A program made the translations under genes and the position numbers. Of a stretch of DNA of 63,123 nt, positions 53,353 through 63,035 are shown piece by piece; within the stretch, counting starts at the first letter, position 1, and each line of letters begins with the position of its first letter. This DNA comes from Thermoanaerobaculia bacterium. Its GTDB lineage: Bacteria > Acidobacteriota > Thermoanaerobaculia > Multivoradales > Multivoraceae. The notes under the pieces are model-generated. The model was not told the DNA's origin, did not search any database, and saw nothing but the letters and a program-made list of their open reading frames with translations. Where the stretch lies: assembly GCA_022826745.1 (NCBI GenBank), contig JAJDUI010000005.1:1-63123 (forward strand). The letters are read 5' to 3'.

Positions 53353-53395
53353 GACGCGCTCCCCCGATAAACACTCCTCACGCCCGAGTCTCCAC

Positions 53396-53432
53396 ACGGG
53401 AAAATCAATAGTGTGACTTTCGATTTTCCCGT
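53396..53432. promoter_or_regulatory. Perfect 11-bp inverted repeat overlapping the ATPase promoter
   Basis: ACGGGAAAATC (53396-53406) and GATTTTCCCGT (53422-53432) are exact inverted copies separated by 15 nt. The right arm ends where TATAGACT begins, so a dimeric protein bound here would block the adjacent start. The AT-rich stretch contrasts strongly with both flanks. Confidence 0.65.
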
Positions 53433-53439
53433 ATAGACT
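53432..53439 (+). promoter_or_regulatory. Possible -10 box of a leaderless transcript
   Basis: TATAGACT lies 8 nt before the GTG of the ATPase gene. No ribosome site precedes that GTG, so transcription may begin at or next to the start codon. No good -35 box is seen at standard spacing; the inverted repeat occupies that region. Confidence 0.4.
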
Positions 53440-53445
53440 CTCTTC

Positions 53446-54600: not shown

Positions 54601-54819
54601 TTCGCAGCACAACGTTCAGGTGGCCCGACAGCCACAGTCCGTCGGTCCACCTCCCGGCGCGCCTTCGAGAAGGTGGAGCGGCTACGTTTCTCTATCGTGC
54701 AGCGCATCACTTCCGGGCCTCAGCGCCGGACAAACCATCTCCGAGAACCTTCGAACCGACCGAAGGGCACCTGCCACTTACTCACCAACTCAGCCAACGG
54801 GCCGAGACGAAGCGCTGCG
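54601..54819. other. Intergenic remnant sequence
   Basis: Most of the 341 bp between the ATPase stop and the Rad50-like stop. I see no complete gene, RNA or clear hairpin here. The frame FEKVERLR near 54667-54690 recalls the ATYERLRDLG segment of the VOC gene, but the match is short. The clear VOC match begins at 54820. Confidence 0.4.
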
Positions 54820-54921
54820 ATGAAGGGCGACGACTTCGCCACAAACCCAATCGGAGTCGACGTCGACAGCGACCGCCTCATCGGGGCGGACGTTGTGACG
54901 ACCCTCTGGAAGTCCGGTTGA
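54820..54921 (+). pseudogene. Fragment of a VOC-family gene (C-terminal tail)
   Basis: The frame reads MKGDDFATNPIGVDVD followed by SDRLIGA; the intact VOC protein at 52708-53352 reads MKGGDFARNPIGVDVD followed by PERLIEA. Eighteen of 23 positions agree. The rest of the domain is missing or unrecognisable and the frame ends at 54921. It is a decayed duplicate lying on the other side of the DUF4143 ATPase gene. Confidence 0.75.
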
Positions 54922-54941: not shown

Positions 54942-56759
54942 CTAGCCGTCCCCATCGCTGTCGGCGCTCACATGGGACAGAGACGCGCCAGACTCCCGTA
55001 TCGCGATGATCCCAGCACCATCCGTGTCGTCAGCCAACTGCTGCGCGATGCCGTGTTCGTAGGTGGTCACCAACAGCTGGCGTGGAGAGCCTCCACGCGT
55101 GGCCGTTGCCAGCGTCGCCGCGACAGCATGACGAAGTTGGGGATCGAGATGCTCGAGTGGTTCGTCGAACCACGCAAAAGGCAGAGATGTCGTCGTACCC
55201 ATGACGATTAGGTGGGTGACTATTCGGGCCCAGGTCCGTTCACCGCCGCTGAGCGAATCCCATTTCAACTCTTCCCCTTCCCGAGATCTCGTGATCGATC
55301 CGTCCGGCCTGAACACGAGGCCATTGTTACTGAACAGATGCTTCCACCGGCTTCGCAGTTCGCTTGCCATCGGCTCGATTCGAGACTTGATTACACGGTC
55401 GGCCGCCGCCCGCAGCACCTTCTCACCCGCAAGAGCGGCGGCTTCCCGCCGGTACGCCAGCCGTAGCCTCCGATCCTCCTGCTGAACTTCATCATCCGAC
55501 TCAACTTGAGCCTTCAGCGCCTTGAGCTGCGACTGCATTCCGCCAAGGCGCCGGTTGTGCTCGTCGAGATCGGCACTTGCCTGGCGATAGCGGGCTTCAG
55601 CTTCATCCCTCGTGGGAACATCCGCGCCCTCAACCTGAAGGCTAGGAGGCCGCAGCGCCTCCAACCGCGCCAAGAGCTGGGAAACCTCTCGTCCTCGCGT
55701 CTGCCTAGCGCTACGATCCCGCTCAAGGCGATTGACTTCCGCCTCCGCCCCCTCCCGTCTTGTCCTGTGGACAGAAATCGCCGAGGCGCGCTCGCGGTGA
55801 GGCAGAGGGCGCATACAGGTCGGGCAGATGGCATCCTCTCCGCTAAGGAGCGTAACTGCCTGCTCGGCGGCAGAAACGACAGAGCGTGCCGTCACAGCGC
55901 GTTCAGTTGCTTCGATAATCTCGCTTTCCGACGTTTCCAGCTCCGAGCGCAGTTCTAAGGCGGCTCCTTGGCTACTACCTGAAGAAACCGGCCGGCCAAG
56001 CGCACCTTCGATCTCCGCCATGAGCCTGGAACGCTGCTGTTCGTATCTCTCCGACTCCCCTGCCAGTGCCAAGTGCCGTTCGACTACAGATCTCTGAGCG
56101 GCAGCGGCGTCCCGAACTCGCTCAAGGTCGAGACTGCGCCGGTTTAGGCGGACGATCTCATCGGCGAGTATGGCGATCTCCTGCTCTAATGCCGCGCGGT
56201 TCTCTAGCCGTCGCCTCGTTGTCGAACGGAGTAACTCCCTTGCTTTCCGTGCCTCCCTGGCAACCGACAGCGCAGTTTCGGCCGCGCCAAGAAGATGCGC
56301 AACGCCGAAGGCCTGATGGAGATGGCTCTCGAGGTTTAGGGCATCACTCGCAGCAATGTGACCGCCACCCAGCATCATTGACAAACGACCCGCAGCTTGA
56401 ATCTCCAACCCGAACGCCTGCTCGATCTCGGCAAGAGCCGAACTCTCGGTCAGCCGGCTACCATCCATCTGATACGTGGCCTTGGGCGCACCTCGCCGCT
56501 TTGCGGTTCGACTGATGCTGAGTCTGCGTCCGTCGGGAAAGGCGATGTCGAGCTCGACTTCCGCACTTTCGGCACCGGCTCGGATACAGGCCTTCGGTTC
56601 CACACGACTATGCTGGCCAAAAACGCCCCAAGCGAGGCCGTAGACGAGCGATGTCTTCCCGACCCCGTTAGGGGCAACCACAAACGTCGTCCCGGGTTCC
56701 AGACGCAACCGAAGGTCCTCGTAGGATCTCCAGTTGCGGAGACGGAGCCTTCGGATCAT
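54942..56759 (-). CDS. Rad50/SbcC-like ABC ATPase with zinc hook
   Basis: 605 residues. N-terminal Walker A is APNGVGKTS (residues 29-37) in an SMC-type start (IRRLRLRNWRSYEDLRLRL). Two coiled-coil arms of about 130 and 110 residues flank a central CPTC zinc hook (312-315). The ABC signature LSGGE (503-507) and Walker B FAWFDEPLEHLD (from about 528) follow. At ~605 residues it is much shorter than SbcC or Rad50, with short arms. Such small hook ATPases occur in DNA repair and phage defence, usually with a nuclease partner; no Mre11/SbcD gene is seen. It is coupled by ATGA to the 300-residue protein. Confidence 0.93.
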   Translation of the reverse strand: MIRRLRLRNWRSYEDLRLRLEPGTTFVVAPNGVGKTSLVYGLAWGVFGQHSRVEPKACIRAGAESAEVELDIAFPDGRRLSISRTAKRRGAPKATYQMDGSRLTESSALAEIEQAFGLEIQAAGRLSMMLGGGHIAASDALNLESHLHQAFGVAHLLGAAETALSVAREARKARELLRSTTRRRLENRAALEQEIAILADEIVRLNRRSLDLERVRDAAAAQRSVVERHLALAGESERYEQQRSRLMAEIEGALGRPVSSGSSQGAALELRSELETSESEIIEATERAVTARSVVSAAEQAVTLLSGEDAICPTCMRPLPHRERASAISVHRTRREGAEAEVNRLERDRSARQTRGREVSQLLARLEALRPPSLQVEGADVPTRDEAEARYRQASADLDEHNRRLGGMQSQLKALKAQVESDDEVQQEDRRLRLAYRREAAALAGEKVLRAAADRVIKSRIEPMASELRSRWKHLFSNNGLVFRPDGSITRSREGEELKWDSLSGGERTWARIVTHLIVMGTTTSLPFAWFDEPLEHLDPQLRHAVAATLATATRGGSPRQLLVTTYEHGIAQQLADDTDGAGIIAIRESGASLSHVSADSDGDG

Positions 56760-57658
56760 GCCGCTATCTCGGCTAGCTTGTCCACATGGGCTCTGTAGAC
56801 GGCTTCCGGTAGTGGTTCATCCTGAGCCGCCTCTACGATCACAGCTAGCAGCTGCGCCTCCTGAACTCCGAAGGCTCCCCAGCTGTCTCGCTTGGCCTCT
56901 ATCCTGGCTCGCGAGCCCGCGGTCGACACTTCCCGCACGACCTCGGTCGCCAGGTGGAGCGGATCTAGGACCGGCTCGACCGTAGTTGGAAGTTGGACTT
57001 CAGGAGCACTCGCGGGCTCAAGGTCCGGAATCATGCCGATGAACCACTCTTCGCATGCAGTTGCAGCGTCCACGACGGTTCGACGCAACCTGGGTGCCCG
57101 CCTCTCACCAGACGGGGTCTCTATGGCATTGCTGACGTCTCCTCGATCCACAACCGCGCCTAGAGGCCTCTCACCGATAGTGGCGTAGAGAACTGCATGA
57201 GAGTCGGGAAAGGCACTGAACACTTGAGCGATATCTTCAGCCCTATTGGCAATCGTGTAGCTAAGCTCCGACGATTCCGCCTCCGGCACGATGCGGAGGC
57301 GCATCCCACGAGCCTGAATCACCCAGGCAGAAGCGAGTCCGGCCGCAGTCGCGGCGACATCAGGAGTGACCAATGTCCTGGAGTCAACGGCTGTCCGCAG
57401 ATGGTCTCGAAGCATGTCGGCCAAGTCGCCTACGCGATCGTCTGTTTGCCTTGGCCGAGCCAAGAGTTGTTCGATCGACGGTCTAGAAGCGTACGGGTCC
57501 ACGCCGCGCGCTGCCGTAATCGACTCTATGAACGCTCTGGCTGCTCCGCGCTGCGCCGCTGGCAGATCCTCGACTACGGGGGGCTCGTTGCGTGCGCCCT
57601 CCAAGTAGTCCAAGTAGGCGGACCTGAAGCTACGGAGGCTGTCATGTCTGCTCGTCAT
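56756..57658 (-). CDS. Unrecognised 300-residue protein coupled to the Rad50-like ATPase
   Basis: I do not recognise a family. The protein is soluble, mixed alpha/beta, with no signal peptide, membrane helix or cysteine cluster; the only Cys lies near VVDAATACEEWFIG. The N-terminal third (HDSLRSFRSAYLDYLEGARNEPP) is helical. The middle has strands such as MRLRIVPEAE and HAVLYATIGERPLGAVVD, and the end is again helical. ATGA overlaps at both ends couple it tightly to the sigma factor and to the ATPase, so its product is probably made in step with them. An adaptor or non-catalytic partner of the ATPase is possible. Confidence 0.8.
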   Translation of the reverse strand: MTSRHDSLRSFRSAYLDYLEGARNEPPVVEDLPAAQRGAARAFIESITAARGVDPYASRPSIEQLLARPRQTDDRVGDLADMLRDHLRTAVDSRTLVTPDVAATAAGLASAWVIQARGMRLRIVPEAESSELSYTIANRAEDIAQVFSAFPDSHAVLYATIGERPLGAVVDRGDVSNAIETPSGERRAPRLRRTVVDAATACEEWFIGMIPDLEPASAPEVQLPTTVEPVLDPLHLATEVVREVSTAGSRARIEAKRDSWGAFGVQEAQLLAVIVEAAQDEPLPEAVYRAHVDKLAEIAA

Positions 57659-58383
57659 CGGTTCCTCCTGGTTGCTGGACGTTCAACTCTCGAGGCCGGC
57701 TTGAACGGGTAGTCAGGGTGGGCTTCGAGTGTCTGAAGAGACTTGCTGTAGATTTGGCCTATCCGCTGGCTAGTCAAACCAAGTCGCTGGCCGACCTCCC
57801 TGCGACTGTAGCCATGGAAGTGAACCGCAAAGAAGATCTCCTGATCCCGGTCGTTAAGAGCCTCTCGGGCCAAGTCGCGCAACTTGAGCACGTCCTGTAG
57901 TACTAGGAACTCGGCCTCTGGATCACCCCAGTCGCTTCGTATCGATTCGAAGACGCCCGGCTGTCTCTCACCGCCTGGGCCCTCTCTCTCCGCGTCGCCC
58001 GACACCAAGCGTAGTGCAGGCCGATGGTCAGTGCCGCGAAGGCCCTTCCCCGAGGCTCGCAAGGCGTCGACTGCCTTGTTCCGCGCGATTCTGACTGCCA
58101 ATGCCTCCCATTCGCCCTCAAGGCGATCGGGCCGGAACTGCAGGAGCGCCCGAGCCGCCTCGGCGAGCGCGTCCTCTGTGCTGACCCCCGTTCCCTCGAG
58201 AACTGGCTCTGCGACGCCTTGAAGATCCGACTGGCCCGTCACAGGACCTCGAACTCCTCCACGGCGCCGGGGGAACAGCGTCTTCTGTATTGTGGCGAAC
58301 ATGACGTCGAGGATGCGGTCGAGGCGCTTCCGGTCGGTCAGGAGCGGGTGCTCGGGGTCGAATGGCGGTGAGCTGAGGCCCAT
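57655..58383 (-). CDS. ECF-like RNA polymerase sigma factor
   Basis: 242 residues. Region 2 is recognisable (EDALAEAARALLQF...WEALAVRIARNKAVDALRA), and region 4 has a clear helix-turn-helix: LNDRDQEIFFAVHFHGYSRREVGQRLGLTSQRIGQIYSKSLQTLE. The N-terminal ~60 residues and the Gly/Glu-rich linker (SGDAEREGPGGERQ) are variable. It is the first gene of the sigma / unknown / ATPase operon and is coupled to the second by ATGA. No anti-sigma factor is adjacent. It may drive its own operon, the ubiquitin-like set upstream, or both. Confidence 0.87.
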   Translation of the reverse strand: MGLSSPPFDPEHPLLTDRKRLDRILDVMFATIQKTLFPRRRGGVRGPVTGQSDLQGVAEPVLEGTGVSTEDALAEAARALLQFRPDRLEGEWEALAVRIARNKAVDALRASGKGLRGTDHRPALRLVSGDAEREGPGGERQPGVFESIRSDWGDPEAEFLVLQDVLKLRDLAREALNDRDQEIFFAVHFHGYSRREVGQRLGLTSQRIGQIYSKSLQTLEAHPDYPFKPASRVERPATRRNR

Positions 58384-58421
58384 CTCAACCTAACTGTCGC
58401 AAACCACGCCGAGAGTGAAAG

Positions 58422-58442
58422 CCGCGCTGGCCGCCAGCGCGG
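58422..58442. terminator. Perfect 9-bp hairpin between the Ubl operon and the sigma operon
   Basis: CCGCGCTGG and CCAGCGCGG pair exactly around a CCG loop, and GGCCGGCCGCCGGCC follows as a second GC-rich fold. It lies 102 bp after the E1-JAB stop (minus-strand direction) and 39 bp before the sigma-factor ATG. It may terminate the Ubl transcript or act as a control site for the sigma operon. It has no U-run. Confidence 0.5.
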
Positions 58443-58543
58443 AGCAAGGCCGGCCGCCGGCCCCCTGACGCGGTACGCGCGATACCTTGACCTGCATTCA
58501 GCGTGTCACCACCGGAAGCAAAGTGTACGAGGATCCGCAGACG

Positions 58544-60049
58544 TCAGTCTGCGACCCGGTCTAGCCATGTCCCGAGGGCGCCCGTAAGGTCATCGACCCA
58601 GCGAAGAAAGCGGACGCGCGCACAGACCGACTTCGATAGTCCTCGTTGTCGGTCCGCTTCCTCGTGAACGCCCGTCAGGCAGGCACGCTGGTCGCCAGCG
58701 CCCTCCGCAGCTTCAGAGGCACAGTGAGGCCTCGTGACGTCATCTCGGATCTGCAGTCCGTGCGTACTGAACGCGTACTGTAGAGGACCGGGATCTCCAA
58801 AGCCGGCAGGAGAGACACTAAAGCTCACGTATTGCGCAAGAACGCTCGCTGCGACGTTCACAGAAAGTGGCGCCACGTTCGGGCTGATTGGCAAACGACG
58901 CGTGTTTGCGCCCTGAATGTACAGAGGATCATCGAGCAGTCCTTGTCGGTCGAGGGCAACTTCACCGAGATCGAGTTGACCGTTGCAACTCAAGCACGGT
59001 CGCCCAGGCCTGACTACGTGGGAACGCCACGTGGCATTGCGCATCTCTCCACTCTCGAACGTATCTATAGCAATGCCGCCATCGACAACCGGGATTAGGT
59101 CCGAGTATGCCACGGAGTTCAGCACGGCGCGTGGCCAAGGGCGGTCAACGCAGGAGAAGATCAGATCGTGATCCAATGCCAACCGTAGTCCTTCCGGCTC
59201 ACAAATGGACCGATCCGAGACCTCGACGCGGTACCTGTCCGCAGTGGCTGCGGCCGTTGCCTCACGGTAGGCAACGTGGATCTTGGGACGTCGCAGGTGG
59301 GCATCGCGGCGTGACGCGCCGATCAGGCGGTCCAGATTCGCACCTTGAACGACGTCAAAATCCATGACCGTCAAACGGAGCAGTCCGGATGCGGCGAGAC
59401 GAACGAAGACATCCAGTCCAACACTGCCGGCCCCAACTACGAGGACCTTCCGCCGGACGAGGTCGGCTTGGCATCGTGCGCCCCAAGCACTCAGGGTCCT
59501 TGACTGCCTATCGCTGAGACTCGGAGGTGGTAACACTTCGTTGTTCCAAGACACTCGCAAGCTGTCCCCTACGACCCGGACGTTCGTGCAGTGAGTGCAG
59601 TCGACCGCTCGACCGAAACCACTGTCCCAGTGGCGAGCCGACCAAGTGCGATTCTGCGAAGCAAGGGTCATGCCGACCAGAGGAAGCCCGGTGAGCTCAC
59701 GGACGAGGTTGGCGTAGCTGGCTTCGCACTCACGGTCCGGACCACTCATCGGCTGCCACCCGCTAGCGCCGGGATGGCTGTGAAGTAGGGCCACACCACA
59801 ATCATCCTGCTGAGCTGTCTCAGCCGCGCGCAGAACATAGTCGCCTGTAACAGTGGCGTTTCCGTGAACCTGCCGATCTCCAGGCTCCGGCGAAACAACT
59901 TCACGAATCAGGGCGCTTCGACGGCTGAGGCCAGTGGAAGGGCGGTAGATAGCGAGACAGAGGTCCTCTTGGCCGTCGTCTCGAACGAGCCGGCTGACGA
60001 GTGCCTGTTCCATCGCCGCGGTCATAGCCACCGAGGTCCGGTATGTCAC
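58544..60049 (-). CDS. JAB (JAMM) peptidase fused to an E1-like ThiF adenylyltransferase
   Basis: 501 residues. The N-terminal JAB domain has the metal motif H90-S-H92-P with S102-x-x-D105 (HSHPGASGWQPMSGPD), with two more residues than usual between His and Ser. A DCTHC pair (residues 150-154) marks the linker. The ThiF/E1 domain has VLVVGAGSVG (202-211), the ATP-ribose acid in TVMDFD (D230), NLDR and a CLSC pair (352-355); further Cys at 443 and 457 could complete a zinc site or serve as acceptor. JAB-E1 fusions are known in bacterial ubiquitin-like operons: the E1 activates the Ubl and JAB removes it. It overlaps the E2-like gene by ATGA. Confidence 0.92.
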   Translation of the reverse strand: MTYRTSVAMTAAMEQALVSRLVRDDGQEDLCLAIYRPSTGLSRRSALIREVVSPEPGDRQVHGNATVTGDYVLRAAETAQQDDCGVALLHSHPGASGWQPMSGPDRECEASYANLVRELTGLPLVGMTLASQNRTWSARHWDSGFGRAVDCTHCTNVRVVGDSLRVSWNNEVLPPPSLSDRQSRTLSAWGARCQADLVRRKVLVVGAGSVGLDVFVRLAASGLLRLTVMDFDVVQGANLDRLIGASRRDAHLRRPKIHVAYREATAAATADRYRVEVSDRSICEPEGLRLALDHDLIFSCVDRPWPRAVLNSVAYSDLIPVVDGGIAIDTFESGEMRNATWRSHVVRPGRPCLSCNGQLDLGEVALDRQGLLDDPLYIQGANTRRLPISPNVAPLSVNVAASVLAQYVSFSVSPAGFGDPGPLQYAFSTHGLQIRDDVTRPHCASEAAEGAGDQRACLTGVHEEADRQRGLSKSVCARVRFLRWVDDLTGALGTWLDRVAD

Positions 60050-60393
60050 GGAACCGCCTCACTAAGAACGGCTCGCACATGGCCCGCCCACGCGACCCCA
60101 GCTGGGGCATCACCCCACCCCGCTATCTGACGGCTGTGCATCGACCATCCGGATTTTTTGGAGGAGGTGCTGTTGGTGCTCGAGAACCTCAAGCTCGCAG
60201 GGAAATGAAGCCAGTGCGGCGGTACTTGGGGCCACGCCTCGAGTTCTCCGATCCCCACACCAGTCTCTATCGCTACACCAGCGTACGCACCGTCTACAGG
60301 CACGACGCTGTAGATGACGAGATCGGCCTCAGACTTCACCGCGAAGCCGAGTTCGACCATTTCTTGAATGAACGCTTCTACGCCTGTCTGCAC
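60046..60393 (-). CDS. E2 (UBC)-like protein without a cysteine
   Basis: 115 residues, GTG start overlapping the Ubl stop by one base (TAGTG). The middle and end show an E2-like pattern: VIYSVVPVDGAYAGVAIE, then EAWPQVPPHWLHFPASL (compare YPxxPP of E2 folds), then GWSMHSRQIAGWG and a final helix WAGHVRAVLSEAV. This is typical of the divergent E2-like proteins encoded beside bacterial multiubiquitin-type Ubls. There is no cysteine anywhere, so it cannot form a normal E2 thioester. It may be a scaffold or non-catalytic UEV-type partner. The family call is from memory of the pattern. Confidence 0.75.
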   Translation of the reverse strand: MQTGVEAFIQEMVELGFAVKSEADLVIYSVVPVDGAYAGVAIETGVGIGELEAWPQVPPHWLHFPASLRFSSTNSTSSKKSGWSMHSRQIAGWGDAPAGVAWAGHVRAVLSEAVP

Positions 60394-60653
60394 TACGCGA
60401 CTGGCGCTTTCTGGCGGATCGAGACGAACCGCGCGTCCTTCTCGATGGAGACGATTTCGTCGTCCTTGAAGCGCCGAGTCTGCGGGTGGTCCTTTCCCTT
60501 CAGCTCTCCAAGGTCGAAGATGGCTGGATCCAGCCCAGCCAAGCGAAGTAGCGCCGAGGCACGCTGACTGAGGTCATCTGTCGAGAACGGTTGGCCGTCA
60601 ATCGTGAACGGGATGCGGCGTCGGAACTTGTCGATGTTGGAAGGTCCGGTCAC
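60393..60653 (-). CDS. Small ubiquitin-like protein (multiubiquitin-type beta-grasp domain)
   Basis: 86 residues from GTG 60653, which has AAAGGAG 6 nt upstream; the longer frame is not supported. After ~15 residues (VTGPSNIDKFRRRI) comes one beta-grasp unit: PFTIDGQPFSTDD, helix SQRASALLRLAGL, FDLGELKGKDHP, then DDEIVSIEKDARFVSIRQ. This closely follows the bacterial multiubiquitin domain, but here only one unit is present. The C-terminus is KAPVA with no Gly in the last 20 residues, so activation cannot use a terminal Gly-Gly. It leads the Ubl/E2/JAB-E1 operon. Confidence 0.85.
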   Translation of the reverse strand: MTGPSNIDKFRRRIPFTIDGQPFSTDDLSQRASALLRLAGLDPAIFDLGELKGKDHPQTRRFKDDEIVSIEKDARFVSIRQKAPVA

Positions 60654-60764
60654 TGGTGACTCCTTTCTTGGACGTTGGCTACTAGGTGTGTCGCAATTCC
60701 CCGGCGCCCCGAAAACCTCGGATGGAGAGTCGTGAGTTCTCCGGGAGAAGAACCGGTGTCGGCG

Positions 60765-61377: not shown

Positions 61378-62121
61378 CTACACCAGGCTCGCGAGGTTCA
61401 CCGTGAGTTCTGCGTGATGACGGCTTAGCCACTGTTTGGCCCGCTCCATCTCTGGACAGAGGCTCTGCACGGTCAACCAGAACTTTGCCGAATGGTCCGG
61501 GACAACCAAGTGCACAACCTCGTGCGCAACGAGATAGCGGAGGACCTGATCCGGCGCAAGGATAAGGCGCCAGTTAAAGGACAGGTTCCGGCGGGACGAG
61601 CAGTTGCCCCACTTCGTACGCTGTCCCATCACGTAGACGCGCTCGGGCTCCCGCCCAATGCGCGCAGTAACTTCGGGCAGGTAGGCCGCGATGGCCGAGC
61701 GGGCCTGTTTTCTGAACCAGCTCTCGAGACCGCGCGCCGCTGGAGTCTGAGTCTGTGGCCCGCGGCGAACGACGATCTCACCGTCGGTCCACGCCACGCG
61801 GTTTCCACGCGCCCTGGTGTCGACATACTCGACGCGCACAGGAGTCGATTCGCCACGGTACAGGATCTCGGCAGACTGCCCCCGAACTGGTCGCCTCAAG
61901 GAACGGAGACTCTCCACGCGATCGAGTTGGGCGAGCAACCAACTCTCGTTCCGGCGCAGAAACGCCGGTACCTCCCCCTGATTCGCGCCCGACGGCTGCA
62001 CGACCTCGACGCCACCTGGACCGACCCGAATGCGACTCTGTCGCGCACCCTTGGAGACGACAACGTCGTAGTCCAACCTCCGACCGCTCAGCACTATCCA
62101 CTCTTGAGTTGCAGCCTTCAT
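61378..62121 (-). CDS. YgjP-like M48-type metallopeptidase (DUF45), type I R-M-associated
   Basis: 247 residues. The zinc site HEVVH (200-204) with H210 (VPDHSAKFW) and the preceding RTKWGNCSSRRNLSFNWRLILAP are the DUF45/YgjP signature. The N-terminal half is the usual beta-rich part. It is cytoplasmic. YgjP-like genes very often follow hsdR in type I restriction-modification loci, and here it overlaps the HsdR-like gene by ATGA. Its molecular role in those loci is not settled. Confidence 0.93.
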   Translation of the reverse strand: MKAATQEWIVLSGRRLDYDVVVSKGARQSRIRVGPGGVEVVQPSGANQGEVPAFLRRNESWLLAQLDRVESLRSLRRPVRGQSAEILYRGESTPVRVEYVDTRARGNRVAWTDGEIVVRRGPQTQTPAARGLESWFRKQARSAIAAYLPEVTARIGREPERVYVMGQRTKWGNCSSRRNLSFNWRLILAPDQVLRYLVAHEVVHLVVPDHSAKFWLTVQSLCPEMERAKQWLSRHHAELTVNLASLV

Positions 62122-63035
62122 CCGTCAGAGACCCCGTCCGACTTGGCCAACTCCTCGACTGCGGGCTTCAAGAACGGGGGATCCTCGGCATCGAGGCCCA
62201 GCCCTTCGTACGGCGGATTCCAGGACTCCGTCAACAACGACCGCTCTACGCTCATACGGCCGCTGACCGAGTGGCTCCACCCCGTCACGAGAAGGCTGTG
62301 CTTCCGCAGGTGGGCGACCATGTTCCGTGCGCTCTCCGCGATGTACGTCTCGTCAGTGGCGGACGTGTATGCGCGCAAGATCGTAAACAGCTCATACTCA
62401 CCGGGCTGCGTGAGGCCCAGCCGTTCCGGCTCCAGCCTCACGTCGGCAACCTCGCCCGCGAGGGCTTCCAACTCCCGGAGGCGCTTCGCGGTGGCTTCGT
62501 CGTCGGTTTCCTGCCGTTCCTTGATCCTTTGAAGCCTCTCCCCGAGCAGTCGATAAAGGAAGCCCGGATCGCCCTCCGTCAGTTCGGCGGTCAGCATCGC
62601 CTCAAGGGCAGCCGCCTTGTCGGCAGGCGTCGGAAGTTCTTCCAGTCTTCCCGCGTAGTCACGATCGATCTTGAGGACCGGCAGTGACTGTGCCATCTCG
62701 ACGAAGGTCGTGTTTGCTTCTATCAGTTCCTTCGTCTTCGCGGACAACTCTCCATAGGTGTTCGTGCTCCCGCGTTGCCGCCGTCGATACGCGACGTAGA
62801 TGCCGCACAACCAGTTGTACCGGAAACGGTGCGGGTACAGACACGGGTCGGGCGAAACGGCTTCCCAGAGCCGCTCGAGGCTCTTGAAGTTCTGCTCGAA
62901 GTTCTTCGCCGTCTCGGAGTCACGGAGCCTCCGTAGGGCAGACAGGAGACACTCCCGCGTATCCGCGATGGTGATACCTTCAAGGGAGCCTCTCAGAATT
63001 GCCGTCGGCCCGCTCATTTGAGAAGATCCATTCAT
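62118..63035 (-). CDS. C-terminal part of a type I restriction enzyme HsdR subunit
   Basis: 305 residues if started at ATG 63035. The segment NFEQNFKSLERLWEAVSPDP, then YNWLCGIYVAYRRRQ, GELSAKTKELIEANT and LYRLLGERLQRIKERQETDD follows the C-terminal helical region of HsdR motor subunits. A full HsdR is roughly 1000 residues; its nuclease and helicase motor are absent, and a transposase gene begins 25 bp beyond the ATG on the opposite strand. The first ~20 residues may derive from insertion-sequence end DNA. It is therefore a truncated remnant, although in frame and coupled to the metallopeptidase gene. Confidence 0.75.
   Translation of the reverse strand: MNGSSQMSGPTAILRGSLEGITIADTRECLLSALRRLRDSETAKNFEQNFKSLERLWEAVSPDPCLYPHRFRYNWLCGIYVAYRRRQRGSTNTYGELSAKTKELIEANTTFVEMAQSLPVLKIDRDYAGRLEELPTPADKAAALEAMLTAELTEGDPGFLYRLLGERLQRIKERQETDDEATAKRLRELEALAGEVADVRLEPERLGLTQPGEYELFTILRAYTSATDETYIAESARNMVAHLRKHSLLVTGWSHSVSGRMSVERSLLTESWNPPYEGLGLDAEDPPFLKPAVEELAKSDGVSDG

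Follow-up and report, generated by a model that had tools for sequence, protein, structure and literature searches.

Hundreds of Bub operons are known, and their gene order, encoding a ubiquitin-like protein (Ubl), an E2-like protein and a JAB-E1 fusion, is that of operon type 6e. As described by Iyer et al. (PMC1779556), this type comprises a Ubl, a cysteine-free E2/RWD-like protein and an E1 that carries a JAB domain at its N-terminus. A second source (PMC13373217) describes CapW, CapH with CapP, and CapK with CapS as DNA-damage controllers of Bub operons and states that protection against phage has not been shown for the operons, so their triggers matter. The window analysed here is contig C26 in its entirety, 63,123 nucleotides from the 4.39 Mb draft genome (G000) of a Thermoanaerobaculia bacterium. 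It contains a Bub-type operon next to a trio of genes for a sigma factor (SIG), an unnamed protein (MID) and a Rad50/SMC-like hook ATPase. From sequence comparison, this trio is most likely a controller of Bub of a new, sigma-based type, with DNA breaks as its probable signal.

The six genes are a real composite system. When a collection of 84,980 species, each represented by a single genome, was scanned (genome_contigs) with two short MID peptide patterns, nine MID loci were confirmed, six of which hold all six genes (L002, L003, L004, L005, L008 and L009, with L008 and L009 indistinguishable through their identical tblastn results); another genome contains a seventh full set, L040. Among the other scanned loci, L006 has five of the six genes before its contig ends, L007 lacks SIG, as its contig starts just before MID, and L010, more distantly related, has MID and the ATPase only. 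According to an earlier note on this DNA, its reading would be refuted if the two three-gene sets were never neighbours elsewhere; they are found side by side in six of the nine MID loci and in L040. The co-occurrence it anticipated thus extends to seven other loci, but the co-directional arrangement of the window does not: in all seven, and in L006, the Bub operon and the trio point away from each other, with start codons 105-115 bp apart. The window is therefore atypical, its Bub half apparently having been inverted together with its own promoter, judging from the positions of the motifs described below. Up to 4 kb outside the block, the seven loci compared have nothing in common beyond matches of 40-46 nt and a single one of 43 residues; with flanks so different, the six genes do seem to move as one piece, as had been suggested. 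Independently, 13 contig sizes are common to the best 120 MID and the best 120 E2 homologues in protein searches. MID was found in one of 396 sampled genomes of its own phylum, that of the window itself (up to five candidates scored per genome), and in two of 396 from the class of G398, G398 included, while no relatives were confirmed in a viral contig scan, 72,556 plasmid records or 50,697 phage records.

A promoter-like motif is shared by the two operons. The exact pattern TTTC-N14-TTGCGACA occurs twice in the 4.39 Mb genome, at precisely these two operons, against 0.12 copies expected from base composition and none of a reversed control pattern. Among six related genomes, G397 has three copies, two of them being its own divergent promoters, and G396 a single copy, its SIG promoter; one copy in G399 lies away from the two operons, and none is present in the G398, G400 and G401 genomes, the promoters of G398, G399 and G400 carrying base changes and the G401 contig starting after SIG. 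A relaxed form, TTTC-N16-NCGA[CT][AG] within 100 bases of a gene start (120 for the Ubl gene of L041), precedes SIG in 13 of 15 trios (0.034 expected from shuffles) and Ubl in 7 of 9 loci (0.025 expected), counts that are descriptive, and weaker than the genome-wide test, because this form was chosen after several of the counted sequences had been seen. They leave out L007, which lacks SIG, L009, which repeats the tblastn result of L008, and the distant trios L010 and L022, where no motif was visible by eye and the first protein matches no sigma model. In L040, both promoters share the altered box GCAACG at unchanged spacing, as expected if one sigma factor reads both. Since the sets recur together and carry the same rare motif, the trio likely switches the Bub operon on, and there are strong grounds for proposing that SIG recognises this motif and is autoregulated. 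Upstream of SIG in L045 and L047, a second, oppositely directed TTTC-N14 motif with a TCTCGATT box was seen by eye; no divergent gene was seen at it, and these promoters may also be bidirectional.

The Ubl half of the block is a Bub-type operon. The JAB-E1 protein matches Citrobacter BubCD, for which a structure has been solved (E 4.8e-20, profile positions 8-354), as well as Pfam ThiF (5.9e-22), and its JAB domain, which includes the motif HSHPGASGWQPMSGPD, is fused to the N-terminus of the E1 as in BubCD. Between the Ubl and JAB-E1 genes is encoded a protein of E2/RWD fold without a catalytic cysteine, which most resembles BubB in its fold; BubB and BubCD are the nearest solved structures. 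A profile comparison with Prok-E2_E, for which only four sequences were available, gave no clear result. The Ubl gene occupies the position of a Bub protein with one to three ubiquitin-like domains, its product ending in ...VA instead of Gly-Gly. Neither the E2-like protein nor the Ubl of the window has a Pfam domain match, and Ubl orthologues match Multi_ubiq weakly, below the cut-off (0.0097 in L008 and 0.072 in L003). The gene order is identical to that of Bub and type 6e operons, from which the locus differs in the accompanying trio; the metal-binding protein of type 6e, as given in PMC1779556, is not among the six genes. A different operon of Ubl, Prok-E2_E and JAB-E1 genes is present at L051 (1112-3220) in G117, a genome of the same genus, the JAB-E1 protein of which is 28% identical to that of the window.

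SIG is an ECF-family sigma factor, with evidence of sigma regions 2 and 4: it exceeds the cut-off of the NCBIfam model TIGR02937 (45.8 bits against 42.9, residues 70-220) and that of Pfam Sigma70_r4 (5.5e-7), Sigma70_r2 reaching only 0.031. As in operons of ECF sigma and anti-sigma factors, the sigma gene is followed by an overlapping partner gene and preceded by a two-block promoter motif of fixed spacing; it differs from these in that the partner, MID, has a core (residues 69-211) that fold comparison models as PD-(D/E)XK-like, and in being coupled to the gene of an SMC-type ATPase. MID has 270 homologues in a protein search and no sequence match in Pfam, PADLOC, NCBIfam or the PDB, including none to an anti-sigma domain in Pfam or NCBIfam, and the family, matched by no Pfam model, deserves a name and a structure. 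The ATPase matches SMC_N (3e-16, above the cut-off), AAA_23 (1.6e-13) and Rad50 structures (4.8e-8), and its sequence shows an ABC head in two halves, the coiled coil and its CxxC hook lying between them, with motifs CPTC at residue 312, LSGGE at 503 and WFDEP at 530.

Together these features suggest a course of events in which SIG would be held inactive by MID until the hook ATPase engages broken or foreign DNA ends, relieving this hold; the freed SIG would then fire its own promoter and that of the Bub operon through the common motif, and conjugation of Ubl to targets would follow, with the JAB domain reversing it. That the Bub operon is paired with its own sigma switch, which MID and the ATPase are predicted to restrain until DNA ends appear, is the explanation we favour and consider reasonably probable. 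The block, the motif with its specificity and the protein classes on which it builds are direct observations; the assignment of MID as an anti-sigma factor or adaptor and of the ATPase as sensor is moderately well founded; it is suggested less firmly that the input is DNA breaks, whether in phage DNA, through restriction cuts or from damage, and that the output is Ubl conjugation reversed by JAB, and only faintly that the outcome is protection against phage. A sigma switch dedicated to Bub, with a regulon of apparently two sites, would make a clean, testable trigger for it and, if the Rad50-like ATPase does gate the sigma factor, would connect DNA ends directly to transcription.

Among the Actinomycetota, the trio is frequently found apart from Bub. 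MID was detected in nine of 396 genomes, G402 (the home of L008) included, using a distant-relative profile with up to four candidates scored per genome. The ATPase gene follows MID, and SIG precedes it, in all nine loci, SIG being identified by tblastn in eight and in L043 by an open reading frame above the sigma cut-offs. All six genes are present in two of the nine, and in one (L041) the trio is accompanied by a Ubl gene alone. A Ku gene lies directly after the ATPase gene in L041 (6644-7465; PF02735, 3.6e-47) and divergent from SIG in L043 (3449-4312; PF02735, 1.5e-49), which points to a connection with DNA end joining. As the trio is found without Bub, and twice beside Ku, it is an independent module that has been joined to Bub; the earlier idea of a six-gene unit holds in that the sets recur together and needs correcting in that the trio also occurs without Ubl genes. 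It is possible, though short of probable, that the cassette works generally, a Rad50-like end sensor gating a dedicated sigma factor through MID as a dead-nuclease-like adaptor, so as to control two promoters here and to run end joining beside Ku, independently of RecA and LexA; if so, it would be a general device for signalling from DNA breaks to a sigma factor, and would establish a sigma-based controller class for ubiquitin-like immunity in bacteria.

Other controllers occupy the place of the trio at related operons. JAB-E1 homologues (E <= 1e-20) were present in eight of the 396 Actinomycetota genomes, the centre of the sample included, and six of these were examined, the two with the weakest matches (G840 and G1087) being set aside. 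The trio is present in two of the six. L063 has, upstream of its Ubl, E2 and JAB-E1 genes, a gene for an L022-type hook ATPase, inside which the contig ends. In L064, a divergent gene run contains a sigma-region-4 protein (1.1e-6) with a zf-HC2-like partner (0.0041, below the cut-off); both lie approximately 2.5 kb away from Ubl, other genes intervening. In L065, where Ubl and E2 were not identified, a gene divergent from JAB-E1 encodes a fused CapH/CapP-type protein, and in L066 CapH and CapP are encoded by two separate genes that diverge from Ubl (PADLOC scores for L065 and L066 of 8.2e-16 and 2e-12 to capP, and 7.1e-9 and 2.1e-8 to capH). The JAB-E1 homologue of L066 (8646-12778) is in two pieces about 2.7 kb apart, with what appears by eye to be an IstA/IstB-type insertion sequence between them. 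Given the published Bub controllers, the divergent CapH/CapP-type genes, which hold the position taken elsewhere by the trio, indicate that the trio sits where such controllers sit. Like CapW, CapH with CapP, and CapK with CapS, it is a small regulatory gene set beside a Bub operon; it differs in having a sigma factor, an activator, instead of a repressor, together with an SMC-type ATPase. As no WYL, M78-peptidase, STAS or GHKL domain was found in SIG, MID or the ATPase with Pfam or PADLOC, the trio does not belong to the Cap controllers, though it may work like one. In L022 (G403:C219, 3703-9814), a distant trio of sigma-like, MID-like and hook-ATPase genes runs in the same direction as a Ubl module of another kind, consisting of a 93-residue Ubl-like open reading frame, a DUF6791-ThiF E1 (2.3e-57) and DUF6527 (1.1e-24); this E1 aligned with the E1 family of the window over a 52-residue nucleotide-binding segment only (probability 7.9). 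Although the first protein of L022 matches no sigma model, a tblastn search with it hits the sigma protein of L064 (3.4e-6), and the L022 genome contains the six-gene system L009 on another contig.

No system combining sigma, SMC and Ubl components, and no sigma-based Bub controller, is described among the matches listed in searches of the openly licensed PubMed Central literature; the earlier impression that this gene set was undescribed applies to the trio controller, the Ubl half being already known as Bub. The further proposal of a damage or phage sensor is supported, indirectly, on its damage side by the Ku neighbours, the CapH/CapP position and the published Bub controllers.

An alternative is that all six proteins form one effector complex without a switch, the ATPase sensing DNA ends like LmuB or Mad3, SIG and MID being structural adaptors, and Ubl conjugation either acting as the effector arm or modifying the ATPase. 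The ATPase does match the PADLOC profiles of mad3 (4.2e-20) and LmuB (8.3e-12), from MADS and Lamassu respectively, and three of the seven full sets are near known or candidate defence genes among the open reading frames scanned: L003 has a CBASS cyclase (8.3e-106) starting around 60 bp after the ATPase gene and PDC-S11 (2.4e-11), L005 a type I restriction enzyme (3.9e-232) and L008 PDC-S39 (2.3e-17). Yet SIG is a real ECF-family sigma factor, both operons are preceded by motif-marked promoters that a structural adaptor would not need, and the trio exists without Bub; this explanation is unlikely. Membership of MADS or Lamassu itself was rejected, as neither SIG nor MID has a PADLOC match up to E 1 and a matching partner protein is thus missing. 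Beyond the full sets, mREase_IV (2.8e-15) is near L007 and HmaA (E 0) near L022.

It is decidedly unlikely that the trio regulates DNA repair, such as that of the Ku type, and adjoins Bub merely through clustering of defence genes. The Actinomycetota trios without Bub genes and the two Ku neighbours would suit such a role, but the sigma motif is found at the promoter of Ubl itself in seven of nine loci, and loci with differing flanks retain the layout of six genes. A third reading, that MID is an active PD-(D/E)XK nuclease forming a DNA-cutting machine with the ATPase, for which the sigma factor is only its own regulator, is very improbable.

Several observations nevertheless weigh against a sigma switch dedicated to Bub, besides the manner in which the relaxed motif was chosen. 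Bub genes were not detected in the stretch fetched for six of the nine Actinomycetota trios, which means that the trio has partners other than Bub. The motif in strict form is absent upstream of SIG in L040 and L046 and upstream of Ubl in L008 and L040, the same loci that the relaxed counts miss, and the extra copies in G397 and G399, which were searched for a larger regulon, have no assignable gene after them. The structure predicted for MID is of modest quality (pLDDT 75.3, pTM 0.48), and the anti-sigma role of MID is argued from its position and from sub-threshold zinc-finger hints in distant relatives, zf-HC2 scoring below the cut-off in the L064 partner and the protein in the MID position of L022 having no Pfam match. 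In addition, inspection by eye of the open reading frames flanking L002, L004 and L040 revealed no defence gene.

The six minus-strand genes proposed in the earlier note are all present at the block (Table 1), and they do form two tightly coupled sets of three, with overlaps of 1-4 bases within each and a gap of 160 bp (58384-58543) between them. The VOC remnant reported at its edge is likewise real but tiny, matching an internal part of a VOC gene.

Table 1. Coordinates of the six-gene block and associated features within the window
Feature	Position	Strand	Evidence or remark
VOC gene remnant, 65 nt, at block edge	about 54819..54883	+	78% identity, E 6e-12
Rad50/SMC-like hook ATPase gene	54942..56759	-	SMC_N, Rad50 structures, zinc-hook motif
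MID gene, unnamed 300-residue protein	56756..57658	-	270 homologues; fold model of core
SIG, ECF-type sigma factor gene	57655..58383	-	TIGR02937, Sigma70_r4
Promoter-like motif TTTC-N14-TTGCGACA	58395..58420	-	ends 11 bases before SIG
JAB-E1 fusion gene (BubCD-like)	58544..60049	-	BubCD profile match, ThiF, JAB motif
E2-like gene (BubB-like), without conserved cysteine	60046..60393	-	
Ubl gene (BubA-like), predicted single ubiquitin-like domain	60393..60653	-	orthologues in all seven full loci
Second TTTC-N14-TTGCGACA copy	60689..60714	-	ends 35 bases before Ubl

The block has a G+C content of 61.7%, compared to 68.2% for positions 1-52600 of the window, which, along with the single MID-bearing genome in the phylum sample, would fit horizontal gain. 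Its neighbours in the window include a type I restriction-like C-terminus (below the cut-off) and a YgjP peptidase: at 61378-63035 on the minus strand, the YgjP-type gene lies behind the C-terminal fragment at the contig end, the remainder of this operon being located beyond the contig. Also in the window is an AAA_14/DUF4143 gene that matches PDC-S01 (4e-80), just before which, at 53386-53442, are two 27-nt arms, 78% complementary and separated by 3 nt.

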